The position numbers and the translations under genes are program-made. Positions 20,015-51,990 of a stretch of 64,000 nt of DNA are shown here, piece after piece (positions within the stretch are counted from its first letter, which is position 1; each line of letters starts with the position of its first letter). Origin of the DNA: Ruminococcus sp. FMBCY1 (GTDB lineage: Bacteria > Bacillota > Clostridia > Oscillospirales > Acutalibacteraceae). A model generated the notes under the pieces. That model was given only the letters and a program-made list of their open reading frames with translations. It ran no database searches and was not told where the DNA came from. The stretch spans positions 2,046,001 to 2,110,000 of the forward strand of contig NZ_CP074197.1 in assembly GCF_023921805.1 (NCBI RefSeq), in the 5' to 3' direction.

Positions 20015-20282
20015 AAGATAAACCATTGAGCAAGAGTAGTAAGATTAATCGGCGCTTTCAGAGAGTCGGCGGTTGGTGTGAGCCGATAGTTGAGATTTTT
20101 CCGAATGGACTTGTGAGGGCGGACCGAAAGAGTATTCGAGTAGTTTCCGACGGAGCCTGACCGTTACAGCAGGAGGCATATGTCAGTATGCTGTATGAGC
20201 GGGCGGAATTTCCGTCAATTTGGGTGGTACCACAGAAGTCGTTTCAGACCTTTGTCCCTTAGTTGGGGCAAAGGTCTTTTTG
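20015..20282 (+). promoter_or_regulatory. T-box riboswitch (tryptophan) with terminator
   Basis: The leader RNA carries the T-box core TGGGTGGTACCAC (20221-20233) and a terminator (20246-20282: GACCTTTG/CAAAGGTC then T's). The bulge sequence overlaps the 5' arm of the competing antiterminator. Stem I includes the AGAGTAGTAAGA-type motif near 20028 and GAATGGAC, in which TGG (20106-20108) is the probable specifier codon, read by uncharged tRNA-Trp. Uncharged tRNA would stabilise antitermination and switch on trpE and the genes downstream. The specifier choice is inference supported by the downstream genes. Confidence 0.93.
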
Positions 20283-20310
20283 TTTATAAAAAATATAAAG
20301 GGTGAGAAAA

Positions 20311-21771
20311 ATGATTAAACCGTCTTATGATGAGGTAATGGCAATTAAGGATGAATACGATGTTATCCCTGTATACAAGGAAGTTTACGCCGATTCTGTC
20401 ACACCGATTACTTTGTTAAGAAAAATTCTTCAAAAGTCAGACAAGTGCTTTCTTCTTGAAAGTATCGAGGGCGGTGTAAAGTGGGGCAGATATTCGTTTA
20501 TCGGCTGTAATCCTAAGGCAAGACTTGTTTATAAAAACGGAGTTCTCACCATTACAGGCGAGGGTGAGGCTGCAATTAAAACCGCCAAGCCATACGAAGA
20601 AATTCGAAAATATATGAAAAATTACAAAAATCCTCGTTTTGAAGATTTGCCGCCGTTTACAGGAGGGCTTGTAGGATATTACGGATATGCTATGATTGCA
20701 GTCAGCGAACCGATTTTGAAAATACAGGAAAGCGAAACCAATGATTTTGATTTAATGCTTTTTGATAAAATTATTGCATACGATCATCTTCGTGAAAAAA
20801 TGACAGTCATAGTAAATATGAAAACTTATGACCCTGAAAGACAGTATGAGCAGGCTGTAAACGATATAAACGAAATTATCAATACAATTACAGCCCCTGC
20901 TCCGCTTGCAAAGCTTGAAAGCGATAAAAATGTGGAATTTACAAGCACATACACAGAAGAAGAATTTTGCGATATGGTTAATAAAACCAAGGAATATATT
21001 TTTGACGGCGATATTTTTCAGTGTGTTGTATCCCGCAGATTTGAAACCGAGTACAAAGGTTCGCTTTTAAATGCATACAGAGTATTGAGAATTACAAACC
21101 CATCGCCTTATATGGTATATATGAATATTGAGGGCGATGAGATTATAAGTACATCACCTGAAACTTTGGTTAAACTTCAGAACGGTGTGCTTAATACATT
21201 CCCGATTGCAGGTTCAAGACCGAGAGGCGCTACAAAAGAGGAAGATGACGCACTTGCCGATGAGCTTATTAATGACGAAAAAGAGCTTGCAGAGCACAAT
21301 ATGCTTGTTGACCTCGGAAGAAACGATATAGGTAAAATTTCAAAATTCAATTCTGTAAAGGTTACTTCATATCAGCAGATTTTAAGATATTCAAAGATAA
21401 TGCACATTTGCAGTGAGGTAGAGGGTGAGCTTAAAGACGGACTTGACGCTTTTGATGCGGTTGAGTCGCTTCTTCCGGCAGGCACACTTTCGGGAGCACC
21501 GAAAATCAGAGCTTGTCAGATTATAGACGAACTTGAAAAAACACCTCGCGGGGTATATGGCGGTGCGCTCGGATATGTTGATTTTAACGGAAATCTTGAT
21601 ACTTGTATCGCAATAAGAATGGCAGTTAAAAAAGGAAATAAGGTTTATGTTCAGGCAGGTGCGGGAATTGTTGCAGACAGCGACCCTAAGTCGGAGTATC
21701 TTGAAACCTACAACAAGGCACTTGCGGTAATAAATGCAGTTAAAAATGCAGGAGAGGTTGAAGCTATATGA
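20311..21771 (+). CDS. trpE: Anthranilate synthase component I
   Basis: This 486-residue enzyme converts chorismate to anthranilate using ammonia from TrpG. The tryptophan feedback motif LLES is at residues 48-51. The catalytic domain includes STSPETLVKL, GSRPRGATKEED, ELAEHNMLVDLGRND and GTLSGAPKIRACQII. ATG 20311 is chosen over the in-frame GTG 20302 because AAAGGGTGAG overlaps the latter. It is the first gene of the T-box controlled operon and overlaps trpG by ATGA. Confidence 0.96.
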   Translation: MIKPSYDEVMAIKDEYDVIPVYKEVYADSVTPITLLRKILQKSDKCFLLESIEGGVKWGRYSFIGCNPKARLVYKNGVLTITGEGEAAIKTAKPYEEIRKYMKNYKNPRFEDLPPFTGGLVGYYGYAMIAVSEPILKIQESETNDFDLMLFDKIIAYDHLREKMTVIVNMKTYDPERQYEQAVNDINEIINTITAPAPLAKLESDKNVEFTSTYTEEEFCDMVNKTKEYIFDGDIFQCVVSRRFETEYKGSLLNAYRVLRITNPSPYMVYMNIEGDEIISTSPETLVKLQNGVLNTFPIAGSRPRGATKEEDDALADELINDEKELAEHNMLVDLGRNDIGKISKFNSVKVTSYQQILRYSKIMHICSEVEGELKDGLDAFDAVESLLPAGTLSGAPKIRACQIIDELEKTPRGVYGGALGYVDFNGNLDTCIAIRMAVKKGNKVYVQAGAGIVADSDPKSEYLETYNKALAVINAVKNAGEVEAI

Positions 21772-22334
21772 TTTTATTTATAGATAATTACGACAGCTTT
21801 ACTTATAATCTTGTACAGTACTGCGGAAGTATTAATCCCGATATAAAGGTAGTAAGAAATGACGAAATAACGGTAGATGAAATCAGAAAACTTAATCCTA
21901 CCCACATTATTCTTTCTCCGGGTCCGGGTTATCCAAAGGACGCAGGCATTTGTGAAGATGTTATAAGAGAGCTTAAAGGCGAGTATCCGATACTCGGTAT
22001 TTGCCTCGGACATCAGGCAATATGCGAGGTATTCGGCGCAGAAATTACAAGAGCAATAAAACTTATGCACGGCAAAAAGAGTAATATTAATATTGACAAC
22101 AGTTGTAAGATTTTTGCCGATTTGCCCAAGGTAGTTGACGGTGCGAGATACCATTCTTTGATTGCAAAAAAGGATACCGTTCCCGATGAGCTTATAGTTA
22201 CGGCAGAGGACGATATGGGCGAGGTTATGGCAGTTCGCCACAGAGATTACGAAATTTACGGATTACAGTTCCACCCGGAGTCGATACTGACTTCTCACGG
22301 TATGGAAATGATAAAGAATTTTATTAATATATGA
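21768..22334 (+). CDS. trpG: Anthranilate synthase glutamine amidotransferase
   Basis: This 188-residue class I amidotransferase supplies ammonia to TrpE. The nucleophile Cys79 is in LGICLGHQAI and the His169/Glu171 pair is in FHPESIL. SPGPGYPKDAG forms the oxyanion-side loop. It overlaps trpE by 4 bp and is not fused to trpD. A copy in the trp operon argues for TrpG, although such proteins can also serve folate synthesis. Confidence 0.95.
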   Translation: MILFIDNYDSFTYNLVQYCGSINPDIKVVRNDEITVDEIRKLNPTHIILSPGPGYPKDAGICEDVIRELKGEYPILGICLGHQAICEVFGAEITRAIKLMHGKKSNINIDNSCKIFADLPKVVDGARYHSLIAKKDTVPDELIVTAEDDMGEVMAVRHRDYEIYGLQFHPESILTSHGMEMIKNFINI

Positions 22335-22365
22335 TTACGGATAACACATAGAAAGGGTGACAGAA

Positions 22366-23376
22366 ATGATTAAGGAAGCAATAAAAAAGGTAGTAAACGG
22401 TAATAACTTAACTTATGATGAGGCAACAGCCGTAATGAACGAAATGATGAGCGGTACAGCCACTCAAGCACAGACAGCGGCATTTTTGACAGCACTCAAA
22501 ATTAAGGGTGAAACCATTGACGAAATTACAGCTTGCGCAACCGTAATGCGTGACAAGGCACTTCATGTTAAAAGAGATACCGATGTACTCGACATTGTAG
22601 GCACAGGCGGCGACGGAACAGGTACTTTTAATATTTCTACAACAGCGGCTTTTGTAGTTGCAGCCGCAGGAATTTCTGTTGCGAAGCACGGCAACCGTTC
22701 AATGTCAAGTAAGAGCGGTGCGGCAGATTGTCTGGAGGCTCTTGGAGTTAATCTTACAATAAGTCCGGAAAAAAGTGAAGAAATCCTTAAAAATACAGGT
22801 ATTTGCTTTATGTTTGCACAAAGCTACCATTCATCAATGCGATTTGTCGGCCCTGTAAGAAAAGATATAGGAATCAGAAATATTTTTAATGTTTTAGGAC
22901 CTCTTACAAACCCTGCTTTTGCAAACTTGCAGGTAACAGGTGTGTATTCAGAGGCGCTCGTTGAACCGATTGCAAGAGTATTTGCAAACCTTGGCGTAAA
23001 GCGCGGATATGTATTCTACGGTACAGACGGTATGGACGAAGTAACCGTTACTGCTCCTACAAAGGTTTGTGAAATCAACAACGGTAAATTCAGCTCATAC
23101 GAAATTACTCCGGAACAGTTCGGTATGCCGACATACAGCAGTGCAGACCTTGCAGGCGGTGACGGCAAAGAGAATGCGGAGATTACAAAGCAGATTTTAA
23201 AAGGCGAGTTAAAGGGAGCAAAGAGAGATATTGTATTGCTTAATTCGGCTCTCGGTATTTGCGCAGGCGGTAAGGCAGAGAATATTGCCGAGGGTATCCG
23301 TCTTGCAGAAACTCTTATTGACAGTGGCAAGGCTTATGAAAAACTTGAGCAGTTTGTAAAGGCTACTAATGAATAA
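22366..23376 (+). CDS. trpD: Anthranilate phosphoribosyltransferase
   Basis: This 336-residue enzyme joins anthranilate to phosphoribosyl pyrophosphate. Diagnostic motifs are DIVGTGGDGTGTFNIST, KHGNRSMSSKSGAAD and the helix KSEEILKNTGICFMFAQ. ATG 22366 follows AAAGGGTGAC; an in-frame GTG at 22357 overlaps that ribosome site. It lies 31 bp after trpG, and its stop precedes trpC by 10 bp. Confidence 0.96.
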   Translation: MIKEAIKKVVNGNNLTYDEATAVMNEMMSGTATQAQTAAFLTALKIKGETIDEITACATVMRDKALHVKRDTDVLDIVGTGGDGTGTFNISTTAAFVVAAAGISVAKHGNRSMSSKSGAADCLEALGVNLTISPEKSEEILKNTGICFMFAQSYHSSMRFVGPVRKDIGIRNIFNVLGPLTNPAFANLQVTGVYSEALVEPIARVFANLGVKRGYVFYGTDGMDEVTVTAPTKVCEINNGKFSSYEITPEQFGMPTYSSADLAGGDGKENAEITKQILKGELKGAKRDIVLLNSALGICAGGKAENIAEGIRLAETLIDSGKAYEKLEQFVKATNE

Positions 23377-48118: not shown

Positions 48119-48685
48119 TTATGAATTTGCAATGAGTTGTTGTATATCTGTTACATCAAGCACATCTATTATGCCGTTCTGATTGTAGTCGGCAAGCATT
48201 TTTTGCTCATCGGAAAAATCTTTAGATTGAGAAATATACATTTGTAATTCCGTTACATCATTAACTGATATTTTTCCGTCTGAATTTAGATCGCCTAATA
48301 AACTGTCTAAAGTGATTTCTTTTCCAATATTATAATTAGTATCGTTGCCATTTATGAATCGGCTTATTTGAATTGCATCAGCAACATCAATAAGTTCATC
48401 ATTATTTACATCTGCAATTCTTTTATCAATGTAATTACCGGTAGCGAGATATTGCATTAATAGTTCGACATCTTCCATGGTGATGTAACCGTCATAATTA
48501 ATATCTCCTATTATTGATTTTGCATAATTCATATTTACAATCATATATTTTTTATCAGACGATACATTGTTATCTGATGATATTACAATGTAATATCAAC
48601 CGTTTGGCAAAGTAAATGAACAGTCGGCAGTTTCTATATTTTCTTTTGATAATACCAATTCGTCAGTATGTGATTTGCTCGGCGG
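48119..48685 (-). pseudogene. Broken dockerin-containing protein (C-terminal remnant)
   Basis: The intact 3' part (48119-48544) encodes four calcium-loop repeats, such as GDINYDGYITMEDVELLMQY and GDLNSDGKISVNDVTELQMY. These form two type I dockerin-like modules that would bind a cohesin. In the same frame upstream a TGA (48596-48598) interrupts FTLPNG-stop-YYIVISSDN, where TGG would restore a Trp. The frame continues to 48685 with no signal peptide or catalytic domain. The remaining ATG at 48544 has no good ribosome site. This is probably the decayed tail of a secreted enzyme. Confidence 0.8.
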
Positions 48686-48801: not shown

Positions 48802-50172
48802 TTAAATATGAAGAATTGTTGTTGCAATTCCAAAGTAAATTAAAAGTGATAAGGCGTCGCAAATTGTGGTGATGAGCGGAGATGCCATTACGGCAGGGTC
48901 AACACCGATTTTGTGTGCGACCATAGGCAAGAACGAACCTATGAGTTTTGCCATTATAATAGTTCCGATAAGTGTAAGCGAAACTACAAGTCCGATAAAA
49001 AGGGCGTTTTCTTTGCCGTTTAAATCGAATATCATCAATTTTATAAAATTTGCGGCGGCAAGAGTGACACCGCAAAGGATAGATACTCTAAACTCTTTCC
49101 ACAATACCTTGACTGCATTGCAGAATTTGATTTCACCAAGCGACAGAGCACGGATAACCGATACCGAAGCCTGCGAACCGGCGTTACCGCCTGTACCTGT
49201 AATCATCGGAATAAATGACGAAAGCACGATTACGCTCGCAAGCGCAGATTCAAAATGAGATATGATAGCACTTGTAAATGTGGCTGAAAGCATAAGTACA
49301 AGCAGCCACGGAATACGCTTTTTGTAAATTCCGAAAACACTTGTTTTCATATAAGGCTTATCGGAAGGCATTACGGCAGCCATTTTTTCAATATCCTCGG
49401 TTGCCTCTTCCTGCAATACATCAATAGCATCGTCGATTGTTACAATGCCGACAAGTCTGTTTTCGGTATCTACAACGGGGAGCGCAAGAAAATTATAGTT
49501 AGAAAACATCTGCGCTACTTTCTCCTGGTCGTCAAGAGTGTTTACACAAATTACATTTTCTTCCATTATCTCCGAAACAATAACATCATCGTCAGATAAA
49601 AGCAGATCCTTTACGCTTGTAATACCGATAAGTTTTGAGTTGTCATCCGTAACATAACAAATGTAGATAGTTTCTTTATCTACACCTGTTCGTCTGATTC
49701 TTTTTATAGATTGCTCGGCTGTCATTTCGGGACGAAGTACAATGTACTCGGTTGTCATAATTGAGCCTGCACTGTCCTCGGGATATTTGAGCAGTTCGTT
49801 AACAGTTTTTCTTGTATCCTTGTCTGCTTGCTTTAAAATTCGCTTAACAACATTTGCGGGCATTTCCTCAACAAGGTCAACCACATCGTCAATAAAAAGC
49901 TCGTCAACAACTTCTTTAAGCTCTGTATCGCTGAATCCGTGAATCAAGAGCTTTTGAGTTTCGTCATCCATTTCCACAAATGTTTCGGCGGCAAGCTCTT
50001 TCGGCAAAATTCTGAAAAGCAGAGGAGTTTTTTCGTCCTGCAGCTCTTCAAATATAGTAGCAATATCGTATGGCTTAAGGGTGACAAGAATATCTCTTAG
50101 AGTGTTAAACTTTTTTTCTTCAAGCAGCACTCTGATAGTTTCGGTTATACCAACCTTAACTGTTTCCATCAT
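48802..50172 (-). CDS. mgtE: Magnesium transporter MgtE
   Basis: This 456-residue inner-membrane Mg2+ channel has an N-terminal helical domain (about 1-130), two CBS domains (about 135-255) sensing Mg2+, and about five membrane helices from about 285. PMITGTGGNAGSQASVSVIRAL near the pore is diagnostic. AAGGAGGAAAG precedes the ATG. Transcription probably starts near 50371, giving a ~200-nt leader with a small ORF and a terminator. Confidence 0.96.
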   Translation of the reverse strand: MMETVKVGITETIRVLLEEKKFNTLRDILVTLKPYDIATIFEELQDEKTPLLFRILPKELAAETFVEMDDETQKLLIHGFSDTELKEVVDELFIDDVVDLVEEMPANVVKRILKQADKDTRKTVNELLKYPEDSAGSIMTTEYIVLRPEMTAEQSIKRIRRTGVDKETIYICYVTDDNSKLIGITSVKDLLLSDDDVIVSEIMEENVICVNTLDDQEKVAQMFSNYNFLALPVVDTENRLVGIVTIDDAIDVLQEEATEDIEKMAAVMPSDKPYMKTSVFGIYKKRIPWLLVLMLSATFTSAIISHFESALASVIVLSSFIPMITGTGGNAGSQASVSVIRALSLGEIKFCNAVKVLWKEFRVSILCGVTLAAANFIKLMIFDLNGKENALFIGLVVSLTLIGTIIMAKLIGSFLPMVAHKIGVDPAVMASPLITTICDALSLLIYFGIATTILHI

Positions 50173-50221
50173 CTTTCCTCCTTCAGCTGTTTAGGGAGTA
50201 AAGACGAGCACCATATTCAGT

Positions 50222-50317
50222 TTATATATTGAGCGACAAAAAATGAACGCAATAGCGGTCATTTCGTTTGTTGCAACTTCGCCCAGGTACTGCGCCTTTA
50301 TTACCGTCTGCGTCCAT
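50222..50317 (-). CDS. Leader ORF of mgtE, 31 codons
   Basis: In the mgtE leader an ORF starts at ATG 50317 with GGGGTG eight bases upstream and ends at TAA 50224-50222. The peptide begins MDADGNKGAVPGR, is acidic at its start, and ends HFLSLNI. The terminator hairpin lies inside its second half. Position, ribosome site and overlap suggest a regulatory leader peptide. Expression is not shown. Confidence 0.6.
   Translation of the reverse strand: MDADGNKGAVPGRSCNKRNDRYCVHFLSLNI
50238..50263 (-). terminator. Attenuator terminator in the mgtE leader
   Basis: On the minus strand AATGACCGC pairs with GCGTTCATT (one mismatch) around TATT and runs into TTTTTT. A competing 7-bp pairing joins GGACGCA at the leader ORF start (50315-50309) to TGCGTTC (50251-50245), the 3' arm. 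Confidence 0.7.
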
Positions 50318-50377
50318 TAATTTTTCACCCCAAATTCTTAAGATAATATTATCGGGATATAAATCCCATACATATTT

Positions 50378-50461: not shown

Positions 50462-50490
50462 TTGACATTTGATGTGCGAAATAGTATAAT
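50462..50490 (+). promoter_or_regulatory. Promoter of the zinc-ribbon membrane protein gene
   Basis: TTGACA (50462-50467) and TATAAT (50485-50490), 17-bp spacer. Confidence 0.8.
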
Positions 50491-50550: not shown

Positions 50551-51990
50551 ATGATTTGTCCTAATTGTAACAAAGAAATTAAAGATGACAGTAAATTTTG
50601 CATTTTTTGTGGTGCAAATGTTCAATCACAGAGTAATGCCCGAAATGATGCACAAAACAATGCACAGAGTGTTCAGCCGCAGTATAATCAACCGCAGCAG
50701 AGTGTTTCGGCACAATCGCAAAACCCACAGTTTCAGCCTAATAATTTTCAGCCTGCAGGTGTTAATCAGGGAGTTTTCGTTCAACCTGCAAAGCCTAAAA
50801 AGCCGATGAATAAAAAGTTGCTTTTTGGTATTATAGGCGGCGCTTGTGCGTTATTAATCATTATTATTGTATCCTTGGTTCTCGTTGCTAATCATAAAAC
50901 TAAAATTAATCTTAGTGATTATATCAAAGTAAGTTATGACGGATACGACGCATACGGTACAGCTTCAGCAGAGTTTGATTACGATAAGTATTTAGATGAT
51001 CTGATGAAGGCGTCATCTTCGTTTAAAAAAGCCTATAATTCGGATATTACATGTAAAAAACTCTATGATTCGGATATTACATGGAGTTCGATTGACGATT
51101 ATTATGATGCGGTAGATATTGACTACGATCTTGATAAAACAAGCGGTCTTTCAAACGGTGATACGGTAACGGTAAATTTTGAATATGACAATGATGCCGC
51201 AGCACAATACAAGATTGAGTATGTTGGCGAATCGAAAGAATATACTGTTGAGGGACTTAAAGAAACCAAGAAAATAGACCCATTTGAGGGTGTTACAGTT
51301 GAATTTTCAGGTACATCACCAAATGTATATGCCAAAGTAGTAAACAATTCAAAAGACGAGGTATATGAGAACATTTATTATGACCTTAGCAAAAGCTACG
51401 ATATAAAAATCGGCGATACAATTACTGTTACAGTAAGCAATGACCCGGAGTATTTTGTTGAGGCTTACGGTTGTGTATTTACTTCAACCACAAAGGACTT
51501 TAAGTGTACCGCTGTTGATCAATATGTGTCAAAGACGGCAGATATTAAAGAAGATACACTTAATGCTATGAAAAAGCAGACAGAAGATGTTATCAATGCA
51601 TATTTTGCAGGTGAAAATAAGTATATCGGTGTGTCTGATTTGAAATTTGAAGGTACATACTTCCTTTATACAAAAGATGAAAACGGCTGGAACTGGGACG
51701 GCAATAACCAGATTTACATTATCTACAGCGGTAAGGTAAAGAGCGTTGAGGATAAAAAGGCGTTTGACGAAACCACTGTTTATTTCCCTGTTAGATTTAA
51801 AGACATTATGCAGTATGCTGACGGAACACAGAATGTTGACTTGAACAACACTTCCATTTCAGGTGAAACCAATCTTGAGTATCATTACAGAAATGTTTAC
51901 GGTTATACCAACAAGGGCGATATGTACAAAGAACTTGTTGAGTCACAGAAAGCTGATTATACCGAGGAAATCACCGATGGACTTAAGTAA
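50551..51990 (+). CDS. Zinc-ribbon membrane-anchored protein of unknown function
   Basis: This 479-residue protein has an N-terminal zinc ribbon (MICPNCNKEIKDDSKFCIFC), an Asn/Gln-rich linker (about 28-85), one membrane helix (about 90-112), and a long extracytoplasmic region with DYIKVSYDGYDAYGTASAEFD and beta-rich repeats. A short internal duplication occurs (YNSDITCKK / YDSDITWSS). This architecture is common in Ruminococcus and related clostridia, perhaps in envelope sensing, but no role is established. GGAGGAT precedes the ATG. Confidence 0.8.
   Translation: MICPNCNKEIKDDSKFCIFCGANVQSQSNARNDAQNNAQSVQPQYNQPQQSVSAQSQNPQFQPNNFQPAGVNQGVFVQPAKPKKPMNKKLLFGIIGGACALLIIIIVSLVLVANHKTKINLSDYIKVSYDGYDAYGTASAEFDYDKYLDDLMKASSSFKKAYNSDITCKKLYDSDITWSSIDDYYDAVDIDYDLDKTSGLSNGDTVTVNFEYDNDAAAQYKIEYVGESKEYTVEGLKETKKIDPFEGVTVEFSGTSPNVYAKVVNNSKDEVYENIYYDLSKSYDIKIGDTITVTVSNDPEYFVEAYGCVFTSTTKDFKCTAVDQYVSKTADIKEDTLNAMKKQTEDVINAYFAGENKYIGVSDLKFEGTYFLYTKDENGWNWDGNNQIYIIYSGKVKSVEDKKAFDETTVYFPVRFKDIMQYADGTQNVDLNNTSISGETNLEYHYRNVYGYTNKGDMYKELVESQKADYTEEITDGLK

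Follow-up and report, generated by a model that had tools for sequence, protein, structure and literature searches.

Sensing of Mg2+ through early abortion of the ribosome has been described for enterobacteria, and the work of Chadani et al. from 2017 is said to concern the destabilisation of ribosomes. The enterobacterial MgtL/mgtA and CorL/corA leaders, in the parts of the papers drawn on here, contain a uORF with an early acidic residue and the motif EPDP, and their output is Rho-dependent termination (PMC11282234, PMC11552253); for mgtL, early ribosome drop-off is reported as the ON condition (PMC11282234). The Salmonella uORF MgtQ, which precedes mgtB and lies between two genes of an operon, has 8 codons with Asp at codon 2 and Glu at codon 5. 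According to the excerpted account, its acidic codons destabilise the ribosome, loss of its start codon lowers expression, and the transporter ribosome-binding site (RBS) is shut in a stem that gives way to an alternative one, releasing the RBS, once the uORF start is occupied (PMC8092293). Two RNA elements of other kinds are also relevant. In Mycobacterium tuberculosis, an M-box is followed by a highly conserved small ORF, uORF2, which is M-box-controlled in the portion of the report cited (PMC12810186). The mgtE motif SRC-65-1 is described, in the section at hand, as exclusive to Thioalkalivibrio; the Shine-Dalgarno sequence (SD) and AUG of the associated ORF lie in its large P4 stem (PMC11109978).

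The mgtE leader of Ruminococcus sp. FMBCY1 analysed here resembles MgtQ, as that system is excerpted, in having a short uORF, an acidic codon 2 and a transporter RBS apparently shut by an upstream element. It departs from the alternative stem 2:3 of MgtQ in that uORF codons 4-17 are predicted to pair with a segment termed b'c and the arm a' with the arm t; the peptide is 20-45 aa long, and the element precedes mgtE or mgtA and occurs in Clostridia and their relatives. With MgtL and CorL, in the parts of those papers considered, it shares a leader uORF upstream of a Mg2+ transporter gene and the early acidic residue; unlike them, its peptides lack EPDP and its conserved output would be the covering of the transporter RBS. 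Judged from the sequences, the switch would operate in the manner of MgtL and MgtQ, but its wiring appears to differ from that of both, with the uORF's own codons serving as the putative antisequestor. The M-box riboswitch (RF00380) has the same target genes and either replaces the uORF element or stands in series with it. The latter arrangement is akin to the M. tuberculosis case, where M-box and conserved uORF also follow each other in one leader, and the cited portion of that account does not describe an acidic-start abortion switch (PMC12810186). What is shared with SRC-65-1 is a candidate structured RNA upstream of mgtE in which a stem contains SD and AUG; going by the excerpted description of that motif, which does not mention a leader uORF, its distribution is different (PMC11109978). 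No description of an mgtE leader uORF switch was found in the open-licence literature searched.

We propose, with somewhat better than even credence, that translation of mgtE, and elsewhere of mgtA, is set by a ribosome-read RNA switch acting through the leader uORF, a reading drawn from sequence comparison and folding. The window, by which we mean the whole stretch of 64,000 nucleotides analysed, has the following leader features upstream of mgtE.

50406-50378, minus strand: promoter-like TTGACA-17-TAAAAT (11 of 12 consensus matches; by consensus match only)
50354..50367, minus strand: 5' hairpin GGGATTTATATCCC at the putative transcript start (sequence and folding)
50331-50326, minus strand: uORF SD, GGGGTG (sequence)
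50317-50222, minus strand: uORF of 31 codons, starting MDADGNKGAVPGRS, full peptide MDADGNKGAVPGRSCNKRNDRYCVHFLSLNI (start conserved in frame)
50318-50309, minus strand: arm a, AATGGACGCA, spanning the uORF start codon (pairing tests, sequence)
50285..50306, minus strand: segment m, uORF +12..+33, codons 4-11, putative 5' strand of the long helix (pairing tests)
50264-50241, minus strand: hairpin AAATGACCGC/GCGTTCATTT inside the uORF, then six T (sequence)
50255..50264, minus strand: arm t, AAATGACCGC, 5' arm of the local hairpin (pairing tests, sequence)
50251-50242, minus strand: arm a', TGCGTTCATT, common to a:a' and t:a' (pairing tests, sequence)
50243-50238, minus strand: U-tract 3' of the hairpin, which may act as an intrinsic terminator in the window's clade (sequence)
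50194..50213, minus strand: segment b'c, TGGTGCTCGTCTTTACTCCC, putative 3' strand of the long helix (duplex with m predicted at -19.8 kcal/mol)
50195..50206, minus strand: anti-SD element c, CGTCTTTACTCC (pairing tests, sequence)
50172..50181, minus strand: mgtE ribosome site c', GGAGGAAAGA (duplex with c predicted at -15.9 kcal/mol)
48802..50172, minus strand: mgtE, Mg2+ transporter, 456 aa (TIGR00400, 494 bits, cut-off 232.75)

A sequence-only reading had earlier pointed to this leader. All the elements it named are present on the minus strand, with correct letters and coordinates. Its observation is confirmed and its interpretation partly supported, and the conserved element is larger than it described. 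The leader of about 200 nt with a uORF and a GGGGTG ribosome site that it predicted agrees with the position of the promoter-like site, from which we infer a transcript start at about 50371. The leader folds better than its shuffles (z -2.76; 1 of 200 shuffles as good), and it matched no family in an Rfam scan, even at E up to 10, nor the M-box covariance model RF00380. A second in-frame ATG directly follows the first at the start of mgtE, and in relatives the 5' strand of the long helix extends to about codon 17 (segment b). Several neighbouring features deserve a record of their own. A perfect TTGACA-17-TATAAT (12/12) at 50462-50490 on the plus strand faces the divergent ORF 50551-51990, and a 141-aa ORF downstream of mgtE (48119-48544, minus strand) has what we take to be three dockerin-like repeats. 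Farther away, a T-box leader (20017-20262, plus strand; RF00230, 115 bits) stands just before ORFs 20302-21771, 21768-22334 and 22357-23376, presumably trpE, trpG and trpD.

The conservation of the leader emerged through mgtE orthologues and not through DNA similarity of the leader. A DNA similarity search with the leader in 150 family genomes gave five short, chance-like matches in four other genomes, neither near mgtE nor within a leader, and these were discarded. Orthologues of mgtE were found in 82 of 100 genomes of the genus; a second locus set consisted of the best 80 of at least 579 contig matches to mgtE, R. bromii included. A pattern for an SD-led uORF recovered a relative in 144 of 160 mgtE loci (75/80 in the genus set and 69/80 in the contig set), which answers the call of the sequence-only reading for conservation upstream of mgtE; since the pattern demands GAY at codon 2, the Asp2 count there is not independent. 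The SD-like sequence is likewise a requirement of the pattern, and it is visible in the aligned rows of the relatives. The 144 loci represent 129 distinct sequences, and one further uORF (L093) was recognised by eye. Six of the 15 loci without a uORF (L084, L090, L091, L098, L101 and L110) carry an M-box; at the other nine, one of which (L060) has little upstream sequence, no substitute element was found.

The peptides begin with the consensus MDAG[S/G]S[T/S/N]GT..GRS, in which indels keep the frame, and the consensus codons are ATG GAC GCN GGN AGT AGT ACC GGC ACN ... GGN CGA AGT. De-duplication at 93% of the uORF start left 95 or 96 rows. In alignment A1 (59 of 95 prepared uORF rows), internal gaps are multiples of three; GGNCGA, in the de-duplicated rows holding it (82 of 96), stands 30, 33, 36 or 39 nt from the ATG; and a stop before codon 14 occurs in none of 96 rows in frame 0, as against 19 and 63 rows in frames 1 and 2. 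In-frame gaps, GGNCGA spacing and the open frame 0 together indicate that the frame is under selection at the uORF start. In the 96 rows the third position is the most variable one at codons 3, 4 and 9, though not at codons 6 and 7. The C-terminal part of the peptide shows no conservation among relatives, and the peptides measure 20-45 aa. As to the idea of an acidic, Pro-containing peptide, the acidic residue found generally is Asp2, while a second acidic residue at codons 3-8 occurs in 28/96 and Pro at codons 5-14 in 57/96. The Arg of the conserved Gly-Arg is CGA in 115 of 117 distinct uORFs (codon 13 in the window, 50281-50279). Pairing with b' may account for part of this near-invariance.

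The genes downstream connect the uORF with Mg2+. R1, a sequence-only model of the uORF start, was applied with E <= 0.001 as cut-off and strict filtering, at the cost of weak matches, and it matched 27 other genomes of 391 in the class and 7 others of 398 in the phylum, 34 in total; the own genome has one convincing match, two weak ones (E 0.18 and 0.28) having been set aside. The gene downstream is mgtE in 29 of the 34 (23 class, 6 phylum) and the Mg2+ P-type ATPase gene mgtA in three (L190 and L193 in the class, L224 in the phylum). The remaining matches, L196 and L198, lie upstream of an elongation-factor-like gene and were excluded as chance; going by sequence and gene order, they presumably correspond to the 3' end of rpsG. 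At the Mg2+ genes, codon 2 of the R1 matches is Asp in 30, Glu in one and Asn in one.

Leaders of mgtA were fetched one each from 20 of the 25 genomes with a match among 291 searched. They contain 14 SD-led uORFs, 11 of which have Asp or Glu at codon 2 and are spread over 10 of the 20 leaders, L211 and L212 being near-duplicates; shuffled mgtA leaders gave 16 acidic uORFs among 226, or 0.32 expected per 20 leaders and at most 2. Two more uORFs, in the near-identical L199 and L200, begin MSDE. R1 itself matched none of the 20 mgtA leaders. The recurrence of an acidic codon 2 without the R1 sequence, the mgtE and mgtA targets, and the relations with the M-box thus tie the uORF to Mg2+. The MgtL-like idea of the earlier reading is strengthened by the acidic codon 2 in mgtA leaders and by the occurrence of the element before two unrelated Mg2+ transporter genes. 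In mgtA leaders L203 and L208, the uORF stop codon overlaps the mgtA SD, a coupling tighter than at mgtE.

The M-box was found in none of 60 genus genomes searched, with positive controls recovered, and it occupies the place of the uORF at six mgtE loci. M-box and uORF stand in series at 10 loci (L078, L190, L193, L195, L199, L203, L205, L206, L208 and L224); codon 2 at L195 is Asn in place of Asp. The Rfam scan of mgtA leaders covered 16 of the 20 fetched. Where an M-box and an acidic-start uORF occupy one leader, two presumptive Mg2+ sensors precede one transporter gene.

Pairing was evaluated in those 140 of the 144 loci whose uORF lies 100-300 nt from mgtE and whose upstream sequence suffices; de-duplication left 83 leaders, of which 82 were long enough for the tests after a'; dinucleotide shuffles served as the reference. 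The uORF start pairs with downstream sequence at a mean z of -2.54 (53 leaders below -2, none above +1); in 82 of 83 the segment it pairs with starts within the uORF itself. The complementarity of the shared 3' hairpin arm to the uORF start, TGCGTTCATT versus AATGGACGCA, which the sequence-only reading had noticed, thus goes beyond chance; the own-versus-swapped comparison for a:a' gave t -10.0. The same comparison in 82 leaders gave t -7.8 for SD:c, -7.5 for m (+10..+33) and -5.8 for b (+25..+51), each pairing better with the element of its own species than swapped segments do. No pairing of arm a with the region after a' was found (t +1.2, 82 leaders); this negative control also disposes of arm a as an antisequestor. 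For t with a', the local fold gives a mean z of -1.39 in 83 leaders (34 below -2, 5 above +1).

The sequence-only reading had proposed a search for covarying stems, and the outcome varied with stem and alignment. Alignments A3 and A4 took 20 and 11 of the 35 A2 rows, A5 took 12 of 15, and A6 all 16. Across 20 genus members, 91.3% of the t:a' cells are paired and 7 show a double change (0/500 shuffles), while neither the pairs changed on both sides (55/500) nor the pair types (65/500) exceed the shuffles. In the same members a:a' is paired in 98.3% of cells, has no double change and is nearly fixed on its 5' side, which is coding, so that this stem cannot covary. The long helix in A5 (12 sequences) has 24 pairs with 91.8% of cells paired and 8 pairs with a compensating change against 1.9 expected (0/500 shuffles), while A6 (16 sequences), with 89.4% of its cells paired, gives a mixed picture of covariation (double-change cells 4/500, pairs changed on both sides 32/500, pair types 484/500), the slid controls favouring these structures because each was drawn from one member. 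Covariation of c:SD in A6 is moderate (cells paired 35/500, pairs with a double change 14/500).

Among the M-box/mgtA-type leaders, 13 of 14 were measured (L202 is without a gene start), and 4 of the 13 have no room for the test of the long helix. The helix recurs with other letters in L190, L193, L195, L199, L205 and L224 (z -2.6 to -5.3) and was not seen in L206, L209 and L211 (z +0.6 to +1.1), three of the nine mgtA-type leaders in which it was measured. The stem a:a' gives z -1.1 to -5.3 in all 13, and SD:c a negative z in 9 and a positive one in 4. Taken together, these comparisons indicate that the conserved output is an upstream element covering the mgtE ribosome site, with a rival helix formed between that element and uORF codons 4-17.

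The proposed switch would use four helices, which sequence comparison supports along with the in-frame uORF start. In a:a', the uORF SD and AUG would be paired with the uORF's own 3' end, which could alternatively lie in the local hairpin t:a'; in c:SD, the anti-SD element c would be paired with the mgtE ribosome site, and pairing of uORF codons 4-17 with b'c in mb:b'c would release that site. Since mb:b'c encloses t:a', crosses a:a' and competes with c:SD, the helices fall into two sets, a closed set of a:a' and c:SD and an open set of mb:b'c and t:a'. A ribosome held or lost in the first codons, where codon 2 is acidic, would with re-initiation keep arm a occupied; with arm a occupied and codons 5 onward free, the open set would form and mgtE would be ON. 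A ribosome that reads on would melt the long helix and leave mgtE closed. Low Mg2+ would destabilise ribosomes on acidic starts, so that scarcity of Mg2+ would raise mgtE. The t:a' hairpin of the window's clade, with its U-tract, may also terminate transcription.

Ribosome progress thus probably decides how much transporter is made, and the suggestion of the earlier reading that it arbitrates between competing folds is plausible. The Mg2+ response and its direction we infer, the rise at low Mg2+ from the nature of the target gene. The acidic codon 2, together with the MgtQ and MgtL reports, suggests by analogy that early holding or loss of the ribosome at low Mg2+ would turn the transporter ON. 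Folding with a masked ribosome agrees weakly with this direction and does not settle it: in 24 of 83 leaders, masking the start leaves the mgtE SD more accessible than masking the middle does, and the reverse holds in 4, while start against none gave 17 up and 17 down of 83, with no effect in the window.

Forced folds of the naked RNA, which place the closed set below the open one in 61 of 83 leaders, speak for the switch model. Several observations count against it. Among them are the limits of covariation given above for a:a', t:a', c:SD and the long helix in A6, the small effect of the masked ribosome, and the mgtA-type leaders in which the long helix is missing or SD:c has a positive z. 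In the window the open set, at -37.3 kcal/mol, lies 7.8 kcal/mol above the closed one at -45.1 kcal/mol. What is general in the uORF peptides is a single acidic residue, and according to the excerpted EttA paper a di-acidic motif by itself may not suffice in E. coli. The preference for CGA is not accounted for by drop-off at codon 2.

It should be noted that transcription attenuation could be the main output in this species, the hairpin 50264-50241 terminating, the uORF-start helix preventing this and the ribosome choosing between them. The six T after the hairpin speak for it, as does the retention of both a:a' and t:a'. So does the U-tract: in the window's clade, whose uORFs are of the MDADGNKG type, 20 of 28 leaders show six or more T among the 9 nt that follow a', 5 of the 28 being mis-registered by the pattern and duplicates being kept in all U-tract counts. 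Most relatives that keep both stems, however, lack the U-tract, which occurs in 3 of 35 leaders in the rest of the genus against a background of 482 of 3601 9-mers; the opposition of terminator and antiterminator put forward in the sequence-only reading is therefore not the conserved output. Moreover, the a:a' helix ends at the same U-tract, which makes the antiterminator label for a:a' uncertain, and a consensus terminator scan returned 0 terminator-like sites, a negative attributed to a mismatch in the stem. Termination in the window's clade is plausible from its sequences; as the main output in this species, attenuation seems to us unlikely. Marginally less unlikely is an arrest peptide, MDAG..GT..GRS, which would stall the ribosome at a defined codon near GRS (CGA AGT), with Mg2+ or a different signal as the trigger, the stalled ribosome setting the fold. 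A conserved start of about 14 residues and the CGA retained in 115 of 117 would suit it, whereas GRS is missing in L066, L079, L088, L105 and L115, the mgtA leaders retain the acidic start with a different remainder, and a ribosome at codons 12-14 would cover the strand required by the open set.

The many conserved nucleotides, the two-state fold and the presence of an M-box in the same place in relatives could also be those of a riboswitch binding Mg2+ or another ligand, in which the uORF is incidental. Against this stand the in-frame indels and open frame, the recurrence of an acidic codon 2 in leaders without the uORF-start sequence, and the Rfam scans, which matched nothing in the window leader and, among the relatives scanned, nothing at the uORF; we regard it as improbable. 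A conserved start rich in Gly, Ser and Thr could suggest that the uORF senses an amino acid through tRNA charging. We hardly credit this: there is no run of a single amino acid, and 32 of the 34 R1 matches precede Mg2+ transporter genes, the other two being chance.

Returning to the ribosome-read switch, its broader form would be a widespread, undescribed Mg2+ switch in Clostridia and neighbouring classes, in which the ribosome is the sensor, an acidic-start uORF aborts or pauses it at low Mg2+ and uORF codons 4-17 free the transporter ribosome site, independent of MgtL and MgtQ in origin, serving mgtE and mgtA, and replacing or following the M-box; to this we give an even chance. It would be an apparently independent system with the same kind of targets and the same acidic codon 2 as in enterobacteria, present in many clostridial genomes, including those of the genus of R. 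bromii, and constituting a two-state RNA with sharp mutational predictions. The leaders in series would make M-box and uORF comparable as sensors within one transcript. If true, this would suggest that the ribosome has been employed repeatedly in evolution as a gauge of Mg2+.
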